Positions 26,880 to 36,319 of a stretch of DNA of 64,000 nt are shown here, in pieces. The DNA comes from Cellulomonas sp. KRMCY2. GTDB taxonomy: Bacteria; Actinomycetota; Actinomycetes; Actinomycetales; Cellulomonadaceae. Numbering within the stretch: position 1 is the first letter of the stretch; each line of letters begins with the position of its first letter. A program made the translations under genes and the position numbers. The stretch covers positions 2,108,001-2,172,000 of the forward strand of contig NZ_JAGF01000001.1 of assembly GCF_000526515.1 (NCBI RefSeq), written 5' to 3'. Under the pieces are notes generated by a model. It was given only the letters and a program-made list of their open reading frames with translations, was not told the origin of the DNA and made no database searches.

Positions 26880-27431
26880 ATGCCTACGCCCACCAAGGGT
26901 CCCCGGCTCGGAGGCGGCCCGGCGCACGAGCGGCACATCCTCGCCAACCTGGCGACGAGCCTGTTCGAGCACCGGCGCATCACGACGACCGAGGCCAAGG
27001 CCAAGCGGCTCCGCCCGCTGGCCGAGCGCCTGATCACGTTCGCCAAGCGCGGTGACCTGCACGCACGTCGCCGCGTGCTCGGGATCCTCACCAGCAAGAC
27101 GGTCGTGCACGAGCTCTTCACCGAGATCGCGCCGGCCATGGCCGAGCGTCAGGGTGGCTACACCCGGATCACCAAGATCGGTCCGCGCAAGGGCGACAAC
27201 GCCCCCATGGCGGTCATCGAGCTCGTGCTCGAGCCGGTGAGTGCCAAGCAGGCCACCGTGCGCGAGGCCGAGAAGGCCACCAAGAAGGCAGCTGCGCCGA
27301 AGAAGGCCGCTGCGAAGAAGACCGAGGCGACGGTCCCGGTCGAGGCCGAGGTGCCTGCCGACGAGGTCGTCGAGGAGAGCACCGAGGTGCAGGTCGACGA
27401 GGCCCCCGCCGAGGACGCCGAGAAGGCCTGA
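26880..27431 (+). CDS. rplQ: 50S ribosomal protein L17 with charged C-terminal tail
   Basis: L17 (183 residues; E. coli 127) sits at the back of the 50S near the exit. [20 protein letters not shown] and [19 protein letters not shown] are diagnostic. The conserved body ends near residue 121 ([14 protein letters not shown]). About 60 more residues follow, first Lys/Ala-rich ([13 protein letters not shown]) and then Glu/Asp/Val-rich. It is the last gene of the alpha group and is followed by a strong terminator. Confidence 0.97.
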
Positions 27432-27447
27432 CCCACCGTCAGACGCG

Positions 27448-27484
27448 CGCAGGGCCCGGACCGGTCATCGGTCCGGGCCCTGCG
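27448..27484 (+). terminator. Terminator after rplQ
   Basis: A 16-bp perfect stem with a 5-nt loop (GTCAT) begins 16 bases after the rplQ stop. It closes the ribosomal-protein block; the next gene has its own -10 element. Confidence 0.85.
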
Positions 27485-27572
27485 TCGTCCGGACGCTGTG
27501 CCGTGCGGGCGCTGTGCCGTCCGCTGCGCCGCCCTGATGTGCGCTGCCCGGTCGCCGCGCCGTGGCCAGGGC

Positions 27573-27578
27573 TAGCGT
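27573..27578 (+). promoter_or_regulatory. -10 element and probable leaderless start of the alpha/beta hydrolase
   Basis: TAGCGT ends 7 nt before the GTG at 27586, the spacing expected if transcription starts at or next to the start codon. No Shine-Dalgarno sequence is present. Confidence 0.45.
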
Positions 27579-27585
27579 GGGCAGC

Positions 27586-28449
27586 GTGAAGGGTCGGGAC
27601 CTGACGCAGCTGCCGGTGGTCTTCGTGCACGGCGCCCGGGCGTCGCACACGATGTGGCGTCCGCAGCTCGGCGCCGTGCAGGGCACCGGCCGGACGGCGC
27701 TGGCGATCGACCTGCCGGGCCACGGTGCGCGGATGGCCGAGCCGTTCACGATCAGCGGCAGCCTCGATGCGATCGACGATGCCGTCCGCGGCCTCGGCGG
27801 GCGCGCGGTCGTCGTCGGGCTGTCCCTCGGCGGCTACCTCGGCATCGCGTACGCCGCGCGGCACCCCGACCGGGTCGCCGGGCTCGTCGCGTCCGGGTGC
27901 AGCACGGTGCCGGACCAGCCGCTGACCGGGGCGTGGCGGCGTGCCGCCCAGCTCGTCGAGCGTCTGCCCGACCGCGGCGCGCGGCTCAACCAGCTCCTGG
28001 TCGACCGGATGCTGCCGCCGTCGGGCGCCGCGGCCGTCGCCGAGGGCGGGTTCGCCCTCGGCGTGATGGTCGACCTGCTCGCGGAGATGCGCACCCTGCG
28101 CACCCTCGAGGACCTCGCGGCGACCCGATGCCCGGTCTGGATCGTCAACGGTCAGTGGGACCACTTCCGGACCCAGGAGCGGGCGTTCGTCCGGGCCTGC
28201 CCGACGGCGCGCCTCGTGACGGTCCGGGGGGCGTCGCACCTGGTGAACCTGGTGCGCCCGGTGGGCTTCAACCGCGTGCTGCTCGCCGCCCTCGACGAGG
28301 TGGACCGCACCGTCGGGTCGGAGTCAGGTGCGCAGCGACCAGGCGCGGACGCCGCCGACGATGCCTGCCGAGTTGGGCACGACGACGACGTCGTCACCGA
28401 GCGCCTCGAGCACGGTCGGGCGGATCCGTCGCGAGTTGCCCCCGCCTAG
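27586..28449 (+). CDS. Alpha/beta-fold hydrolase
   Basis: A 287-residue alpha/beta hydrolase of unknown substrate. The oxyanion region VVFVHGARASHTMW, the nucleophile elbow GLSLGGYLG (Ser of GxSxGG) and a late GQWDHF / GASHLVNLVRP giving candidate Asp and His complete a catalytic triad. No signal peptide, so it is probably cytoplasmic. I chose GTG 27586 because of the -10 box 7 nt upstream; GTG 27562 or 27577 are alternatives. The last 126 bases overlap the 3' end of the convergent ROK gene, and that C-terminal stretch is low complexity. Confidence 0.8.
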   Translation: MKGRDLTQLPVVFVHGARASHTMWRPQLGAVQGTGRTALAIDLPGHGARMAEPFTISGSLDAIDDAVRGLGGRAVVVGLSLGGYLGIAYAARHPDRVAGLVASGCSTVPDQPLTGAWRRAAQLVERLPDRGARLNQLLVDRMLPPSGAAAVAEGGFALGVMVDLLAEMRTLRTLEDLAATRCPVWIVNGQWDHFRTQERAFVRACPTARLVTVRGASHLVNLVRPVGFNRVLLAALDEVDRTVGSESGAQRPGADAADDACRVGHDDDVVTERLEHGRADPSRVAPA

Positions 28450-29097
28450 GTAGAGGCGGTCCCAGTGGAAGACGGGTCGTAGCCCGTCGACGACCCGACG
28501 GACCCGGCGTGACCAGGATGCGTCACCGAGCCGGCGACGCTCGTGGTCCCCGAGGTAGGCGTCGTAGGTGACGCCCCAGCGCACCGGTGCGTGCGAGAGC
28601 TCGAGGTGCGGTGAGAGCAGGCCGCCGTCGAACAGCGCCGAGCCCAGACCCGTGCCGAGGGTGAGCACGAGCTCGAGCCCGCTGCCGGAGACGACGCCCG
28701 CGCCGTGCACCTCGGCGTCGTTGAGCACGAGCACCTGGTAGCCGAGCGCGGCGCCGAGTGCAGCCGACATGTCCTTGCCTGCCCATGCCGTGACGAGCTC
28801 GGGGTCCACCCGGCTGCGCGGGCCCGACCGGGTCACGTAGTGCGGTGTCGCGATCACCACGCCGTGCCGGATCATCCCCGGCACCCCGACGGTCGCGCGG
28901 TCGGCGACCGGCAGGCCCGCAGCGATCGCGACGATCGTCTCGACCAGCCGTTCGGGCGGCAGGGGGTACGGCGTCGGGACGCGGACCGGCGGGACGTGCA
29001 GTGTCCCGGCCGCGTCGAGGACCGAGGCCTTGATCCCGCTGCCCCCGCAGTCGACCGCGAGGGTCCTGGGGCCGGACGTCCCTGCTGATGCGCTCAC
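28324..29097 (-). CDS. ROK-family kinase, polyphosphate-glucokinase-like
   Basis: A 257-residue sugar-kinase-fold protein. The phosphate-1 motif DCGGSGIKASVLD, the catalytic-Asp region LNDAEVHGAG and the phosphate-2 motif LTLGTGLGSALFDGG match polyphosphate/ATP glucokinases (PpgK). The C-terminal GGGNSRRIRP and NSAGIVGGVRAW also align with that family. It is diverged: ELSH replaces the usual ELGH, and DCGG replaces DIGG. Phosphorylation of glucose or another hexose with polyphosphate or ATP is likely but unproven. GTG start. It is convergent with the hydrolase and cotranscribed in direction with, and downstream of, the giant surface protein gene. Confidence 0.75.
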   Translation of the reverse strand: MSASAGTSGPRTLAVDCGGSGIKASVLDAAGTLHVPPVRVPTPYPLPPERLVETIVAIAAGLPVADRATVGVPGMIRHGVVIATPHYVTRSGPRSRVDPELVTAWAGKDMSAALGAALGYQVLVLNDAEVHGAGVVSGSGLELVLTLGTGLGSALFDGGLLSPHLELSHAPVRWGVTYDAYLGDHERRRLGDASWSRRVRRVVDGLRPVFHWDRLYLGGGNSRRIRPTVLEALGDDVVVVPNSAGIVGGVRAWSLRT

Positions 29098-29106
29098 CGG
29101 GTGACC

Positions 29107-32100
29107 CTAGGACTGCCGGGCCCGCGTCCGCCAGATGCGGGCACCCGCGCCGCCGACGACCAGCACCGCGACCAGGGCGAGGAGCCACCACCGGCTGTCG
29201 ACGGCGTCGGCCGGCGCGGTGTCCACGGCCGTCGGGCCGCTGCCGTCGCCGGCGTCCGGCATCGGCCCGGCGGTCTGCCCACCGTTCCCGGCGTCCGCGG
29301 GGTCACCGGCTCCGTCGTCGCTCCCGCTTCCGGTGCCCTGCCCGGCGTCGCCCTCGCCCGGGCTGCCGCTCTCGCCCGCTCCGCCGCCGGTCGTGGTCGT
29401 GCCGGTCGCCGGTTCGGTGGCGGGAGCGGCGGCTGACGCCCCTGGTGCGCGACGGACGGCCGGTGCGGGCCGGTCGGATCCGCGGGCGGCAGGGGTGGTC
29501 GGGCTCCCGGCAGGTGCGGGCACCGGGCCGGGTCCGGTCTCCGGAGCGACGACGGTGGCGGGCGAGACCTTCGCCGGGGCGACCATCAGGGTCAGCACCT
29601 GCCGCGTCGGGGTACCAGCTCCGTTGTCCGCGACGACGGTGACCGGCCAGGCCCATGCGGACCCGACGGCGGGTGTGCCGGTGATCGTCGCCGTCCCGTC
29701 GCCGGCGTCGGCGAACGACAGACCCGTCGGCAGGGCACCGTCGAGGGTGAGCCTCGGCGCGGCGGGCCAGCCGCTCACGGTGCGCACACCGACCGTGGCG
29801 GGCTCGCCCTCCCGCAGGGCGGGCATCGTGACCGCGAGGGTGGCCGGTTCGTGGACCGTCACCGTCAACGGGACCGACGCCGGTTCGAGCACACCGTTCG
29901 CAGCGGTCACGGTGGCTGTGTGCACCCCGCCGGTGCCGGGGGCGGGTACCCCGGTCAGGTGCCAGGAGCCGTCCTCGACCTGCGCCATCCTCAGGCCGTC
30001 GGGCAGGCCAGTGGCCGTGACCGTGGGCGCCGGCGCACCGGCGACGGAGATCTCGCGGTCCACCGGCTCACCGGTCAGGACGGTCAGCGGCTCCAGGGTC
30101 GCGGGGAGCGTCGAGCGTGCCTCGACGTGGACGTCGATCACCGTGACGGCCTCGAACGGGTCACCGCCGATGATCGACCGCGCGGTGACGGTCAGCGTGT
30201 GGTCGCCGGCAGCTCCTGCCGCGGGCGTGCCGGTCAGGACCGGGTCGCCGCCCGGTGTGTACGCGAGAGTCAGGCCGGCGACGGACCCCGCGACCTCGAG
30301 CGTGGGGAACGGGAAGCCCCGCAGGGTCAAGGCCGTGCTCGAGGCGACGCCCTCGGTCATCGGCACCGCCACGGCGGCGCTGCCGAAGGCCGGTGCCTCG
30401 GTGACGACCAGGGTGACGTCTGCCTCGGCCGTGCCGTGCGCGTTGACGGCGCGTACGACGAGGTCCCAGCTGCCGGACTCGGTCGGCGTGCCGGACAGCG
30501 CGGAGCCGGCGGGGCCACCGGTGGCGACCACGCCCGACGGCAGGTCGCCGACGAGCTCGACGGTCGGCGCCGGGTAGCCGGTGGCGGTCCAGCTCACCGG
30601 CGCCACCGGGTCACCGAACCAGGCCGTGACCGATGGCGAGGGTGCGGCGAGGACCGGCCCGGCGGTGATCGTGAGCGCGAGGTGATGGGTGCTGGTCAGG
30701 CCGTTGTCGGCGGTCAGCGTGACGACGTGCTCCCCTCGCACGTCGCGCCCCGGGGTCCCGGTGATCCGCCACAGCCCGGCATCCGGCCCTGGCTCGAGGG
30801 ACACGCCGTCGGGCAGCCCGGTCGCGGTGACGGTGGCGTCCGGGCTCGCTGCGACAGTCACGTCGAGCGACATCGGCAGGCCGGCCGGTGCACTGACCGA
30901 CGCCGGCGCGCCGAGCACCGGACGGTCGGCGACCCGGAGCTCGACCGTCAGCGGCGGAGCTCCGGCGGTCGTCGGCGTGAGCGTCATCAGACTCACCCCG
31001 GGGCTCGGCGGTGTGCCGACGAAGGTGGCGCTGAAGGCGGTCGGGAGCCAGGAGACCTCGGCCAGGTCGAGGTCGAGCCACGGCACGGTGGGGAGCAGGT
31101 AGCCCCCGGGCATCGGGTAGCCGGTCAGGCGGACGCGCAGGGGCTCGATCGGCACCCCGGTCTCCAGCACGAGGGTCGCCGGCACCTGCTCCCACTGGAG
31201 GTCCGCGTCGACCCTGAGGGCCAGGTGGGCCACGACCGGCGAGCCGATGCCGTTGTCGAGCAGGATCCGGACATCCCGTAGCCCACGGTCGGCTCGGCCC
31301 GGCGTCCCTGCGACGCTCCACGTCGCCGGACCGCCCCGGACCAGGTCGAGGCCGGCGGGGAGCGGGTCGATGAGCGTGACCGTGGGGGCCGGCCAGCCGG
31401 CCGTGACGAACGTCGTCGCGCCTGCGGTGCCCGCCAGGGCGGTGATCGGCACGGGTGCCCCGGTCACCGACGGTGGCGCCTCGAGCACGAGGCTCAGGTC
31501 CATCAGGTCCGCACCGTGCAGGTTCCAGGCGCGCAACGTGAGGTTCGTCGTGCCCGAGGCTGCGGCGGCCGCTCCGGCGGAGAGCGTGCCGGTCAGCACG
31601 CCGTCCGTGCTCAGGGACAACCCTGCGGGCAGCGCGCCTGCGACGACCGCCACCTGGTGCACCGGACTCGCGTCGGCGGCGAACGTCCGCGTGACCGGGA
31701 CGCCCTCGCGGACCGTGACGGTGGCCGCGTCCTCGACGAAGAGCGGTGCGCCGTCGACGGTGAGCGCGACGGTGCTGGTGTCGGTGCCGTGCTCGTTCGA
31801 CGCCGTCACGAGCAGCGACCAGGTCCCGCGAGCGGTGGGTGAGCCGGACAGGGTCAGGACGCCGTGCCCGTCGTCGGCAGCCACGAGTCCGGCCGGCCAC
31901 GGGGAGCTGTCGGCCGTCGCAGCAGTCAGCGTGGGCGTGGGCCCGCCCGTCGCCGTGAAGGCCACGGACAGTGGCGTCCCGCGCAGCGCGGCCACTGTCG
32001 CCGGGCCGTCGAGCTCGGGTGGCCCGGTCACCGTCACTGTCACGGTCTTGGTCCTGACCAGGCCGTTGTCCGCCGTCAGGGTCACCGGGTGCGACCCGAG

Positions 32101-35100
32101 GACGCTGCGATCCGTCGTCCCGACGATGCTCCACCCGGTCGGGGCCCCGGTCGGGACGAGGGTCAGGCCGGACGGCAGGCCGGACGCGCTCAGGCCGGCG
32201 ACCGGTGAACCGGTGACGGTGACCGGCACGTCCACCGGCTGGCCCGCTGCCACCGTGACCGACCCGGCGACGGTGATGACCGGACGGTCCTGGACGATGA
32301 CCCTGGTGCTCAGCGTCGGGCCGTCGCAGATGTTTCCCCGCGCCGGACAGATCCAGTAGGTCCACGTCCCGGAGGCCGGTGGAGTGCCGGTGATCCACCC
32401 CGAGAACTCCGTGCTCGTCCAGGTGCCCCTGGTCAGTCCGAGGTTGTTGACGGCGTTGGAGATCAGGCCACCCGGCACCGGGAAGCCGGTGAGGCTGATC
32501 GGGAAGGGTGCCATCGGCACGCCGCGCTCCACCACGACGCTCGACGACGGTGACGTCCACCGGAGAGCTGCCTTCACCACGACGTCCAGGTACCTGACCA
32601 CCGCGCTGCCGTTGCCGTGGTCCAACGAGAGGCGGACGGCGCGGGCGCCGCGGTTCTCGCGGGTGACCGTCCCGGTGATCTGCCACGTCGTCGCGTCCAC
32701 CCGGCTGAGCGCAAGGCCCGCCGGGAGCGGGTCGAGCAGAGTGACGGTCGGCGGGGTCCAGCCGGACGTGGTGAACGTGTACGTGACGGCGGAGTCGGCT
32801 GTCGCGATCAGGTCCGGCAGCCCGGCCGGGATGTCCGGCCTGGTCAGGACGTCGATGCTCAGGGCGAGCGTGTCGGAGCCGAAGGCGTTCGAGGCCTGGA
32901 CGATCAGCTCGTGGCGGCCGGCCGCGGCACTGCCGGTGGAGCCACGCAGCATGCCGTCGGTGCCGAGCGTCAGGCCCGACGGCAGGGTGCCCGACACGAT
33001 CGTCACGGTGTGCGACGGGTAGGACGTCGCCGTGAGCTGCGTCGCGATGTAGCTGTTGGCGCCCAGCCGCACGGTCCTGGCCTCGGCGGTGAACTCGGGC
33101 ACCGCCCCGACGGTCACCGCCACGAGGTGCGTCGTGCTGCCGCGGGAGCTGCTCGCGGTGACCGTGAGATCCCACGTCCCGGCCTCGGTGGGCGTGCCGC
33201 TCAGCACGAGGCGGCCGGCGCCGTCATCGGTCGCGAGGATGCCTGGCGGCAGGGCTCCGCCGTCGGTCGCCACGAGGCCGAGCACGGGGACCGGGTACCC
33301 GGTGACCGCGAACCCGGTCCCTGCGGCCAACGGCGTGCCCCGGGTCGCCGTCAGGGTGTGTGCGCCGCTGACCGACGGAGCGCCCTCGATGGTCAGCACC
33401 GTCGAGGCGGCCGCGCCCGCGCCGATGCCGTTCGTCGCCGTGAGGGTCACGGTGCGGACCCCGAGCCCGTCCCGGGTCGGCGTGCCGGTGATGGACCACG
33501 CGCCGTCCGCGCCGGACAACGCGAGGCCGGCGGGCAGGCCGGTCGCGGTCACGACGGGCGACGGGTATCCGGTGACGGTCACCGGGACGGCGACCGGGCT
33601 GCCGACCAGGAGGACCTGCTGGGCAGGCACGTCGATGGTCGGTGGCGTCCCGACGACGAGCTGGAACGTCGTGCCGGCGGGCGCCCCGACACCGTTCGCC
33701 GCCGTCGCCGTGATCGTCGTCGAACCGGTGCTGGTCGGCGTCCCGCTGATCACGACACCGGTCGCCGTCGTCGACGACACCAGGCCGGCAGGTAGCCCGG
33801 AGAGCGTGACTGTCGGGGCCGGGTAGCCGCCGGCCACGAGCGCGATCGGTGCGACGGCCGTGCCCACCTCGGTCCGGAGGTCCGGCTGACCGGTCATCGT
33901 CGCGGGTGCCTCGACCCGCACCGTGACCGGGAGGGTGGCAGTGGCGTAGCCGTTGTCCACGGTGAGCGTGGTCGACGTCGTGCCACCGGGCCCGGTCGGT
34001 GTCCCGGCGATGACGAGCATCGCCCCGGCGACGGTGGCCGTCAGGCCGGGCGGCAGCGGCGGATCGGCGGACGCGACGGTCGGCAGCGGTGAGCCGCCCA
34101 GATCGAGCGTGTGGGTCACGGGTGCGCCGACCGTCGCCACGACCGTGCCGGGGCCGGTGACCGTCGGCGGCGTGAACACCCGCAGCGTCACGTCCTGGTA
34201 CCCCACGAGGTCGTCGAGGGTCTTGGCGCTGACCCGGAAGGTGAACATCCCGGTCGCCGAGGGCGTCCCGGACAGCGTCACCGACGTGCCGGAGGCCGTC
34301 GCGACGACACCGGTCGGCAGGGCGCCCGACGTGGTCACCGTCGGGCGCGGGTACCCGGCTGCCGTGACGGTGACCGGGCTCATCGCCGTGCCGAGCCGGA
34401 GGTCGACCGTCGTCGGACCCGTGAACGACGGCAGCGTGTAGGCGCTCTCCAGCGCGACGGCAGCGAGCCACTCGAGGGTGATGGCTGCCGACTGCCCGTT
34501 CGACGGTGCGAGGAGCTGGATCTTGACCTGGGTGATCCTGGTCAGGTCGCCGGTCCCGGTCAGGTAGCGCACGTCGTCCGGCCCCTGCTGGACGAAGTTG
34601 GCCACGAACTTCCCGGAGCCGGCCAGCAGGCCCGTGCCGCCGCGGGACCGGTCCTTCCCGTTCGCGTCGGTCAGGTAGATGCCCATCGAGACGGGGTTCG
34701 AGCTCGTGTTGCCGCCGGCTCCCGAGTAGTCCAGCTGGAGCTGCGTCAGGGCCCCGCCGCGGGTCAGGTCGACAGGTGCAGGCAGGTCCCACACGATCTC
34801 GGCGTACGGGACGCCGCCGCCGGCACCGATCGCGATCCGTGCTGCGCCGGGCGTCACCGTCACGGAGCTCCCGGAGCCGCCGATCACGCGGGAGCCGAGC
34901 GGAGCCCCGAGGAAGTCGTCGACGACGATCGCCGGCGCGTCCGCGGCGACAGCCGCCGGTGCGACGAGCAGTCCGCCGCTGAGCGCGAGGACTGTCGCCA
35001 CCAGTCCCGCAGCGCCGCGGCGCAGGGCGCGCAGGGACGGGGGCCGGGCATCGCGGCGCCGCCGTCCACGGGGCGTGCTGGATCCTGGCCGGGGTGTCCG

Positions 35101-35157
35101 GTCGAGCCGGCGTGGGCTGTCGAGCGGGCGTGTCTGGTCGAGCACGGGGCACCTCAC
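29107..35157 (-). CDS. Giant cell-surface protein with about 18 Ig-like (He_PIG-type) modules
   Basis: A 2016-residue secreted, membrane-anchored protein. Residues 49-71 are a signal peptide (hydrophobic run ending AVA|AD) after an unusually long Arg-rich N-region. Residues about 74-238 form an unidentified beta-rich domain. Residues about 240-1859 are 18 modules of about 90 residues with the recurring pattern xxxITGTPxxxG...VTLTATNG, typical of putative Ig domains. Residues about 1860-1988 are a Pro/Thr/Gly/Asp-rich linker. Residues 1990-2005 are a membrane helix followed by Arg-rich RTRARQS. No LPXTG motif. Probably an adhesin or cell-surface scaffold; ligand unknown. The GTG at 35157 is the first start in frame; a GTG four codons later is possible. 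Confidence 0.88.
30660..33384 (-). repeat. Five-module super-repeat inside the giant surface protein
   Basis: Modules 5-9 (about residues 592-1045) and modules 10-14 (about 1045-1500) match in order, type by type. Module 7 and module 12 share LxDPLPAGL and an xRGxRxVRxxLDxGxGSxVV ending. Modules 8 and 13 share a GVPxxPxxxxLTGxPxPGG signature. Modules 9 and 14 share DRPVxxxxxSVxxxAG and VTLTADNGL. Modules 15 and 16 begin a third, incomplete copy. Boundaries are approximate, by eye. Confidence 0.65.
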
Positions 35158-35391
35158 GGGCGCACATCGGGTTGGCGAGCGCCGCGGGGGATCGGCACCC
35201 GAGCGCCTCGGTCCGGGGGTGACCGGGGCGACGGTGTCACCCTTTCAGCGCGATCGTGCCGGTGTCGGCGGTTCCGTCGGCGGTGGCCTGGTTTCACCCG
35301 CTATGGGAGCCATGATCACCCACCTGGCCGTACCCGGACGCGGGTCCGGGCGCCGGGCGGCCCCGAGCAGGGTGCGATGCCCGTGCTCGCG
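35158..35391. other. Divergent control region between the giant surface protein and truA
   Basis: A gene-free stretch of about 230 bp between two divergent genes. It contains several short GC inverted repeats, including GGGTGAC / GTCACCC on the minus strand near 35216-35242. I see no confident promoter for the surface-protein gene. I looked for known riboswitch cores and did not recognise one. Confidence 0.3.
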
Positions 35392-35397
35392 TACCGT
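35392..35397 (+). promoter_or_regulatory. -10 element and probable leaderless start of truA
   Basis: TACCGT ends 7 nt before the GTG at 35405. The 7 nt are TGCCTGC, with no Shine-Dalgarno sequence, which favours a leaderless mRNA. Confidence 0.5.
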
Positions 35398-35404
35398 TGC
35401 CTGC

Positions 35405-36319
35405 GTGACAGATCCGTCGACCCAGAGCCCGGTGCGCGTCCGGATCGACCTCTCCTACGACGGGACGGGGTTCGCCGGCTGGGCGACCCAGCCCGGCCTG
35501 CGCACCGTGCAGGGGACCCTCGAGGTGGCGCTCGGCACCGTGCTGCGGTGCCCCGACCCGCGGTTGACCGTCGCGGGGCGGACCGACGCCGGCGTGCACG
35601 CCAGGGGACAGGTCGCGCACGTCGACCTGGACCGTCAGGTGTGGGAGGGGACGCTCGGCCGGGGGGGATCCGGCCCGAGCGAGGTCCTGCTCCGGCGCCT
35701 GGCCGGGATCCTGCCGCCGGACGTCGTCGTGCACCGCACGACGCCGGCCGCACCCGGGTTCGACGCCCGGTTCTCTGCGATGCACCGGCGCTACACCTAC
35801 CGGCTGAGCGACGACATCTCGCAGGTCGACCCGCTGCGTCGCACGCACGTGGTGCGGCACCGGTTCCCGCTGGACGTGGCAGCGATGAGCGAGGCGGCGG
35901 TCGCGCTCGTCGGGCGGCACGACTTCGCCGCCTTCTGCCGCCCACGACCGGGCGCGACGACGATCCGCACGCTCCAGGTGCTCGACGTCGCGCGTCCGGC
36001 GATCGGTCCGGATGCCGGCCTGGTGGCCGTCGTCGTGCAGGCCGATGCCTTCTGCCACACCATGGTGCGCTCCCTGGTCGGCGCGCTGCTCACCGTCGGC
36101 GAGGGTCGGCGCCCGGTGGCGTGGCCCGCCGACCAGCTGGCCGGGGGTCGCCGCGACGGGGGGAGCCTGGTGGCCCCGGCCCACGGACTGACCCTGGAGG
36201 AGGTCGTGTACCCGCCCGACGACGAGCTCGAGGCACGCGCCGAGCGCACCCGAGCCCGACGGCAGCACGTCGGTCCGGCCGCTACGGACTGCCCGGACGA
36301 CGCGGCCGTCGCGGACTGA
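35405..36319 (+). CDS. truA: tRNA pseudouridine(38-40) synthase
   Basis: TruA (304 residues) converts uridines 38-40 of tRNA anticodon stems to pseudouridine. The N-terminal [20 protein letters not shown], the catalytic-Asp motif [17 protein letters not shown] and the C-terminal [17 protein letters not shown] are diagnostic. GTG 35405 is chosen from the -10 spacing and the protein start [16 protein letters not shown]. In many actinobacteria truA lies directly between rplQ and rplM; here it is isolated from both by accessory genes. The last 35 residues are a non-conserved charged tail. Confidence 0.95.

Follow-up and report, generated by a model that had tools for sequence, protein, structure and literature searches.

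A long array of related modules in a bacterial surface protein raises the question of how it grew, by single modules or by blocks of several, and whether such a block is also a unit of function. We addressed this question for one gene in a 64,000-nucleotide stretch of Cellulomonas sp. KRMCY2 DNA (contig NZ_JAGF01000001.1, positions 2,108,001 to 2,172,000; here called the window), part of a single-contig genome of 4.495 Mb. The open reading frame (ORF) at 29107-35157 (minus strand) encodes a predicted exported surface protein of 2016 amino acids (aa) with 18 modules, each of 87 to 95 aa in the protein segmentation. It belongs to the Pfam family He_PIG (PF05345), with an E value of 1.5e-38 and 131.5 bits against a cut-off of 24, over 12 stretches. 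A sequence-only reading of the window had sorted modules 5-14 into two rounds of five types (A to E) and claimed that the array grew by duplication of whole blocks. Our analysis indicates that an array of about 13 modules probably diverged first and that one five-module block was then duplicated in this lineage.

In-order pairing of modules 5-9 with modules 10-14

The one-to-one correspondence between modules 5-9 and 10-14 holds. In an 18 by 18 matrix of global-alignment scores, all 10 modules have their reciprocal best partner five positions away (5/5 pairs), and the in-order pairing, at 872.5 versus 696 for the next order, ranks first of 120. Identities within pairs are 48% (5-10), 42% (6-11), 47% (7-12), 35% (8-13), and 51% (9-14), compared with means of 32 to 36% at other spacings. 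Self-alignment, proposed as a check on the claim, gives the same picture: the mean score is highest at spacing five (119), with 88 at thirteen (5 pairs), 86 at ten, and 63 for neighbors. Against shuffled module orders, spacing five gave a p value of 0.00015 (spacings 1-9), 0.0012 with row- and column-centered scores (spacings 1-12), and 0.02 with modules bounded by hidden Markov models (spacings 1-14, some with as few as four pairs). The double round had been placed at 30660-33384, close to the 30664-33384 occupied by modules 5-14, and the blocks of 1359 and 1362 bp agree with the claimed length of about 1.35 kb.

Maximum-likelihood trees (support given as ultrafast bootstrap/Shimodaira-Hasegawa-like approximate likelihood ratio test) also pair the modules in order. 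A tree of the 18 window modules recovers four of the five pairs as sisters: 7-12 (99/96), 8-13 (96/94), 6-11 (90/78), and 9-14 (87/69), the last inside a group with module 17 (93/90). Modules 5 and 10 fall in an unresolved group with 1, 15, 16, and the 6-11 pair. In a 66-row tree of the window and four relatives (Cellulomonas uda, G117, G089, and modules 1-9 of G128), all five pairs are sisters (8-13, 100/94; 7-12, 100/98; 6-11, 97/84; 5-10, 98/70; 9-14, 99/74), with module 15 joining 5-10 (97/84) and module 17 joining 9-14 (93/89). With a self-similarity peak at five and ordered pairs in the trees, the array can be classed as a block-duplicated domain repeat, and the claim of growth by block rather than by single modules is borne out by the best spacing, the rank of the pairing, and the trees together.

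The full order of the array is 1-2-3-E-ABCDE-ABCDE-A-B-E-18, in which modules 1-3 and 18 are without a clear place in the five-type scheme. A third round had been said to begin at modules 15-16, and this is only partly so: module 15 is clearly A and module 16 weakly B (pair-profile scores, B 33.5, A 25.8, and E 25.8), and then C and D are missing and module 17 is E. Both copies of the D-type module carry an unusual signature, PGG.

Age of the duplication and register with relatives

Over 448 aligned codons, the blocks share 43% of their amino acids, and their third bases agree at 53% of 157 fourfold sites with the first two bases equal, versus 47% expected from codon usage. Silent sites are thus near saturation and the duplication is old, as the sequence-only reading had concluded from the large divergence between copies. 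The same near saturation makes an assembly artifact unlikely as the source of the two blocks. Each block is 29 to 30% identical to the aligned positions 5-9 of C. uda, Cellulomonas sp. APG4, and C. persica, and with 43% between the blocks, the duplication appears to postdate the divergence from these proteins.

Relatives were recognized by the N-terminal domain. A profile of this domain finds a match in 15 of 221 family genomes (counting the window's own) and in 11 of 396 genomes in an even draw of the order; as a single query, the window's domain matches 2 of 19 genus genomes, its own included. Its best single-query match in a relative has an E value of 1.4e-17, and it is 29 to 32% identical to the domain of the Cellulomonas 13-module proteins, with which the window protein is homologous by this shared domain. 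Among the 14 other family genomes that match, 13 were counted (G181 was left out): eight have 13 modules, APG4 has 12, G106 has 11, G128 has about 15 (nine and five in two different frames and one split), and G022 and G234 each have seven clear modules, with one further weak module in G022 and two in G234. Outside the family, the counts are 5 (G262), 7 (G532), 5 (G077), 4 (G318), 4 (G331), and 5 (G264), with G412 left out. This comparison of array lengths, also proposed as a check, thus finds 13 modules in 8 of the 13 counted relatives, and the array was not built by the block event alone. The G128 array gene (L080, 4492-10253) is spread over two reading frames, which is either a real split or a sequencing error. 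For the five modules of G262, the best matches are ortholog positions 1, 2, 3, 4, and 13, which suggests array growth in the middle.

Ortholog position profiles were built from the eight 13-module proteins, APG4 (positions 1-12), and G128 (positions 1-6); G106, G022, and G234 were left out because their module numbers differ, and G181 and G412 are also absent. When the 13 modules of C. uda are compared with the seven other 13-module proteins, the same position is the best match throughout in three, with mismatches in the rest at positions 7 and 8 (G117), 7 (G098), 3, 7, 8, 9, and 13 (G086), and 7 and 8 (G089). As judged by these best matches, position identity is retained across species, a conservation that does not itself give the reason for the retention.

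The window array shares a register of five with these positions. Pairs of window module i and ortholog position j with i-j = 0 mod 5 score +5.06, versus -0.6 to -2.4 in the other four classes (p = 0.003 with profiles and 0.0043 with plain scores). By shift, 0 is best (8.3), followed by 5 (6.4), 10 (5.3), and 7 (4.8). Positions 1-6 agree with shift 0, and positions 4-8, 11, and 12 agree with shift 5, the pattern expected from one inserted block of five. The relatives have a spacing of five of their own (p = 0.024 with profiles, positive in 7/8 pairs with 6-11 dominant; p = 0.0496 with plain scores), and in single 13-module relatives it is the best spacing in five of six and tied with three in the sixth (p = 0.024 to 0.23). 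This one block copy therefore does not account for the whole growth of the array, as a spacing-five signal was already present in the 13-module relatives. In post hoc tests, made once the register was known, scoring with the window types gives E, A, B, A (with C second), and D at ortholog positions 4-8, and E-A-B-C-D at these positions ranks first of 1080 placements. Since the types match the relatives' positions 4-8 in order, the five types probably existed before the block was copied.

Weighing the histories of the array

In the history that we favor, position-specific types would already have arisen in an ancestral array of about 13 modules. In this lineage, five modules in mid-array (about 1.36 kb) would then have been duplicated as one block, in tandem and in frame, giving 18 modules (13 + 5); one recombination event, by unequal crossing-over or replication slippage, would have made the copy, and the copies would since have diverged to their present identity, at which a junction is unlikely to have survived. 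The in-order pairing, the counts of 13 and 18, and the near-saturated silent sites are direct observations, and the register common with the relatives is supported less firmly. Several points weigh against this history. Gene conversion between the blocks could give the copies a falsely young look. Array length in the relatives also varies by steps of other kinds (APG4 has 12 modules, G128 about 15, G106 11, and others 4 to 7), and among the six single relatives a p value of <0.05 for spacing five was reached in one only. Period seven scores nearly as well as five (4.83 versus 5.06), because both include shift 0; shift 5 fails at ortholog positions 9, 10, and 13; and the relatives show strong similarity at a spacing of three (9-12 and 10-13), a pattern not expected from a register of fives alone. 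When all 13 ortholog positions are tested together, their match to the types is of borderline significance (p = 0.055), with position 7 fitting A over C and positions 10, 12, and 13 fitting E where A, C, and D are expected, and window module 18 does not match position 13. Branch support is weak in places: in the 18-row tree, only 2 of the 15 inner branches pass both thresholds.

The alternatives differ in the unit of growth, in its timing, or in its cause. Growth by single modules, with a spacing of five reached by convergence or chance, is favored by five other He_PIG arrays of the family (L053, L054, L055, L057, and L058) in which spacing one is best, at p values of 0.13 to 0.43 that lie within shuffles. 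In the window array, however, neighbors score 63 against 119 five apart and the in-order pairing ranks first of 120, and this explanation, rejected on these scores, is highly improbable. Alternatively, the block duplication could predate the divergence of the window protein from the 13-module proteins, the relatives having lost a block. The spacing of five in the relatives, strongest between positions 6 and 11, and the depth of the split seen in the N-terminal domain (29 to 32% identity) speak for such a history, but the window copies are sisters in the 66-row tree and are closer to each other than to the relatives (43% versus 29 to 30%), so that we regard an early duplication followed by loss as unlikely.

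A different explanation concerns selection. The five-module unit could be a functional one, with contacts peculiar to each type and an A-B-C-D-E order maintained by selection, as for the super-repeats of the titin A band. That two full rounds preserve the order, which is also partly in register with the relatives, that most positions keep their identity between species, and that PGG recurs in both D-type copies all point this way. The third round, however, is without C and D, relatives with 4 to about 15 modules make incomplete units common, and distinct modules stay distinct where no recombination homogenizes them, so that types described by the sequence-only reading as kept distinct represent the default outcome; the specialized roles or contacts suggested by the same reading stay hypothetical. 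Ordinary divergence explains the distinctness of the five types, a need for five-module units is not required by the pattern, and we doubt that the unit is a functional one. It is also improbable that five modules would form a length or contact quantum of a stalk, with their own contacts along the stalk or sideways and with whole units as the tolerated growth step. A block duplication in an already diverged 13-module array remains our preferred history.

Architecture, likely role, and genomic setting

From N to C terminus, the protein consists of a probable signal peptide, a beta-rich N-terminal domain, the 18 modules, a linker, and one hydrophobic tail (Table 1). The GTG at 35157 is simply the first possible start codon of the gene.

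Table 1. Features of the array gene, in window coordinates
Feature	Position	Strand	Basis or remark
Whole gene (ORF)	29107..35157	-	18 He_PIG (putative immunoglobulin [Ig]) modules; Pfam He_PIG 1.5e-38, 12 stretches
Probable signal peptide region	34942..35055	-	Basic run, hydrophobic core, AVAA; sequence read
N-terminal all-beta domain (DDFxG...), common to relatives, ~170 aa	34438..34947	-	Profile matches; AlphaFold2 (AF2) model
Module 1, no type given	34174..34437	-	Segmentation, pair profiles
Module 2, no type given	33910..34173	-	Segmentation, pair profiles
Module 3, no type given	33649..33909	-	Segmentation, pair profiles
Module 4, type E	33385..33648	-	Pair profile; 66-row tree instead groups it with ortholog position 3 (83/67)
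Module 5, type A, first block	33106..33384	-	Segmentation, score matrix, trees
Module 6, type B, first block	32845..33105	-	Segmentation, score matrix, trees
Module 7, type C, first block	32575..32844	-	Segmentation, score matrix, trees
Module 8, type D, first block (type D least like other types)	32290..32574	-	Segmentation, score matrix, trees
Module 9, type E, first block	32026..32289	-	Segmentation, score matrix, trees
Module 10, type A, second block	31753..32025	-	Segmentation, score matrix, trees
Module 11, type B, second block	31480..31752	-	Segmentation, score matrix, trees
Module 12, type C, second block	31207..31479	-	Segmentation, score matrix, trees
Module 13, type D, second block	30928..31206	-	Segmentation, score matrix, trees
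Module 14, type E, second block	30664..30927	-	Segmentation, score matrix, trees
Module 15, type A (clear), third round	30400..30663	-	Trees, pair profile
Module 16, type B (weak), third round	30121..30399	-	Pair profile; outside 6-11 group in both trees
Module 17, type E, not C; C and D missing before it	29851..30120	-	Trees, pair profile
Module 18, best profile C, without tree support	29578..29850	-	Pair profile, trees
Pro/Gly/Asp-rich linker, hydrophobic segment (about 29110-29196), and basic tail	29110..29577	-	Sequence read

The N-terminal domain matches no Pfam family at E values up to 1, and the C. uda copy has a sub-threshold Pfam match only (E = 0.087); an NCBIfam search of the array protein likewise gave no match at E values up to 1. 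The AF2 model of the N-terminal domain is all-beta and of low confidence (mean predicted local distance difference test [pLDDT] score, 62), and the fold-search matches were taken up by module 1. A five-module model is a chain of beta domains with a mean pLDDT of 90 and a predicted template modeling score of 0.61, the latter leaving the angles between modules unsure. It matches tandem Ig modules (NCAM2, Dscam, and titin) and SraP with Z scores up to 12.5, values that for repeats may mean only a common arrangement. SraP (PDB 4m00, 4m02, and 4m03) provides the best solved relatives of the window modules by sequence, and by fold 4m02 matches window module 1 over 85 residues (Z = 12.3, 1.6 Å).

By analogy, the most likely function of the array is that of a stalk carrying the N-terminal domain outward. 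The cadherin-like modules of SraP have been described as belonging to a relatively rigid stem that bears a lectin head (PMC4047093). The calcium ligands of SraP covered by the alignment of module 3 (Asp601, Asn602, and Asp645, placed by counting along the chain) fall once in a gap, once on Gly, and once on Asn, and a calcium-stiffened stem as in SraP is not supported by the ligands at this one module. The array would be a membrane-anchored stalk of Cellulomonadaceae, with the N-terminal beta domain as a putative binding head. The C-terminal sequence of the window protein has no LPXTG-like motif before the hydrophobic segment, which argues against sortase anchoring. Its relatives, with the same N-terminal domain and module family, differ at this end: APG4, C. 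persica, and others have an extra C-terminal domain (local score, 32 for the window protein versus 275 for C. persica) and a tail such as LATTG or LAATG before the hydrophobic end, both absent from the window protein.

The array gene lies between a ROK gene and truA (window 26880-36319). Downstream of rplQ, a He_PIG-like ORF was found in none of 14 congener stretches, 13 of which reach truA (L152 ends at a contig end first; four further congeners were left out of the comparison), so that the array gene is probably an accessory insertion. The rplQ-truA neighborhood is common to the window and relatives, and the insertion site differs: in all nine relatives with an array near rplQ-truA (L056, L080-L083, and L085-L088), it lies between rplQ and the hydrolase gene. 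This would reflect either two insertion points in one neighborhood or a later move. In the window, the hydrolase ORF (27562-28449, plus strand) and the ROK ORF (28324-29097, minus strand) overlap tail to tail by 126 bp (28324-28449).

Scanning genome contigs with the whole window protein, without a profile, found no relative; with the N-terminal domain profile it found three (C. uda, Cellulomonas sp. APG4, and C. persica), and a plasmid search had no match at 1e-5. A relative from the same or a sister species was absent from the genomes searched. APG4 (L050) is the only other genus genome with the N-terminal domain; its array resembles that of C. uda far more than the window's and is not on the contig that carries its rplQ, a hint of horizontal exchange. 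One other He_PIG array of the family (L052, in G046) is best at spacing two (p = 0.059) and possibly holds a two-module block.

Repeat proteins are known to grow by duplicating several domains together (Bjorklund et al. 2006; PMC1553488), and the window array fits this mode. Nebulin, a eukaryotic protein, has seven-domain units, whereas the window array is bacterial, with five Ig-like modules in two full rounds and partial flanks. The array may or may not resemble the super-repeats of the titin A band, which also have beta-sandwich modules in a fixed order within the unit; in titin, residues conserved at two super-repeat positions have been proposed to contact thick-filament parts (PMC10665226). 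A literature search for He_PIG with Cellulomonas gave no match, and the available part of PMC3544764 has nothing on the window protein. If the five-module unit were a length or contact quantum, the array would be a bacterial counterpart of the titin super-repeat. On the history favored here, it provides a bacterial case of block growth in a surface array whose 13-module state is still present in relatives, and it makes it possible to examine whether modules become different types before a block is duplicated or afterward; the present evidence favors before.

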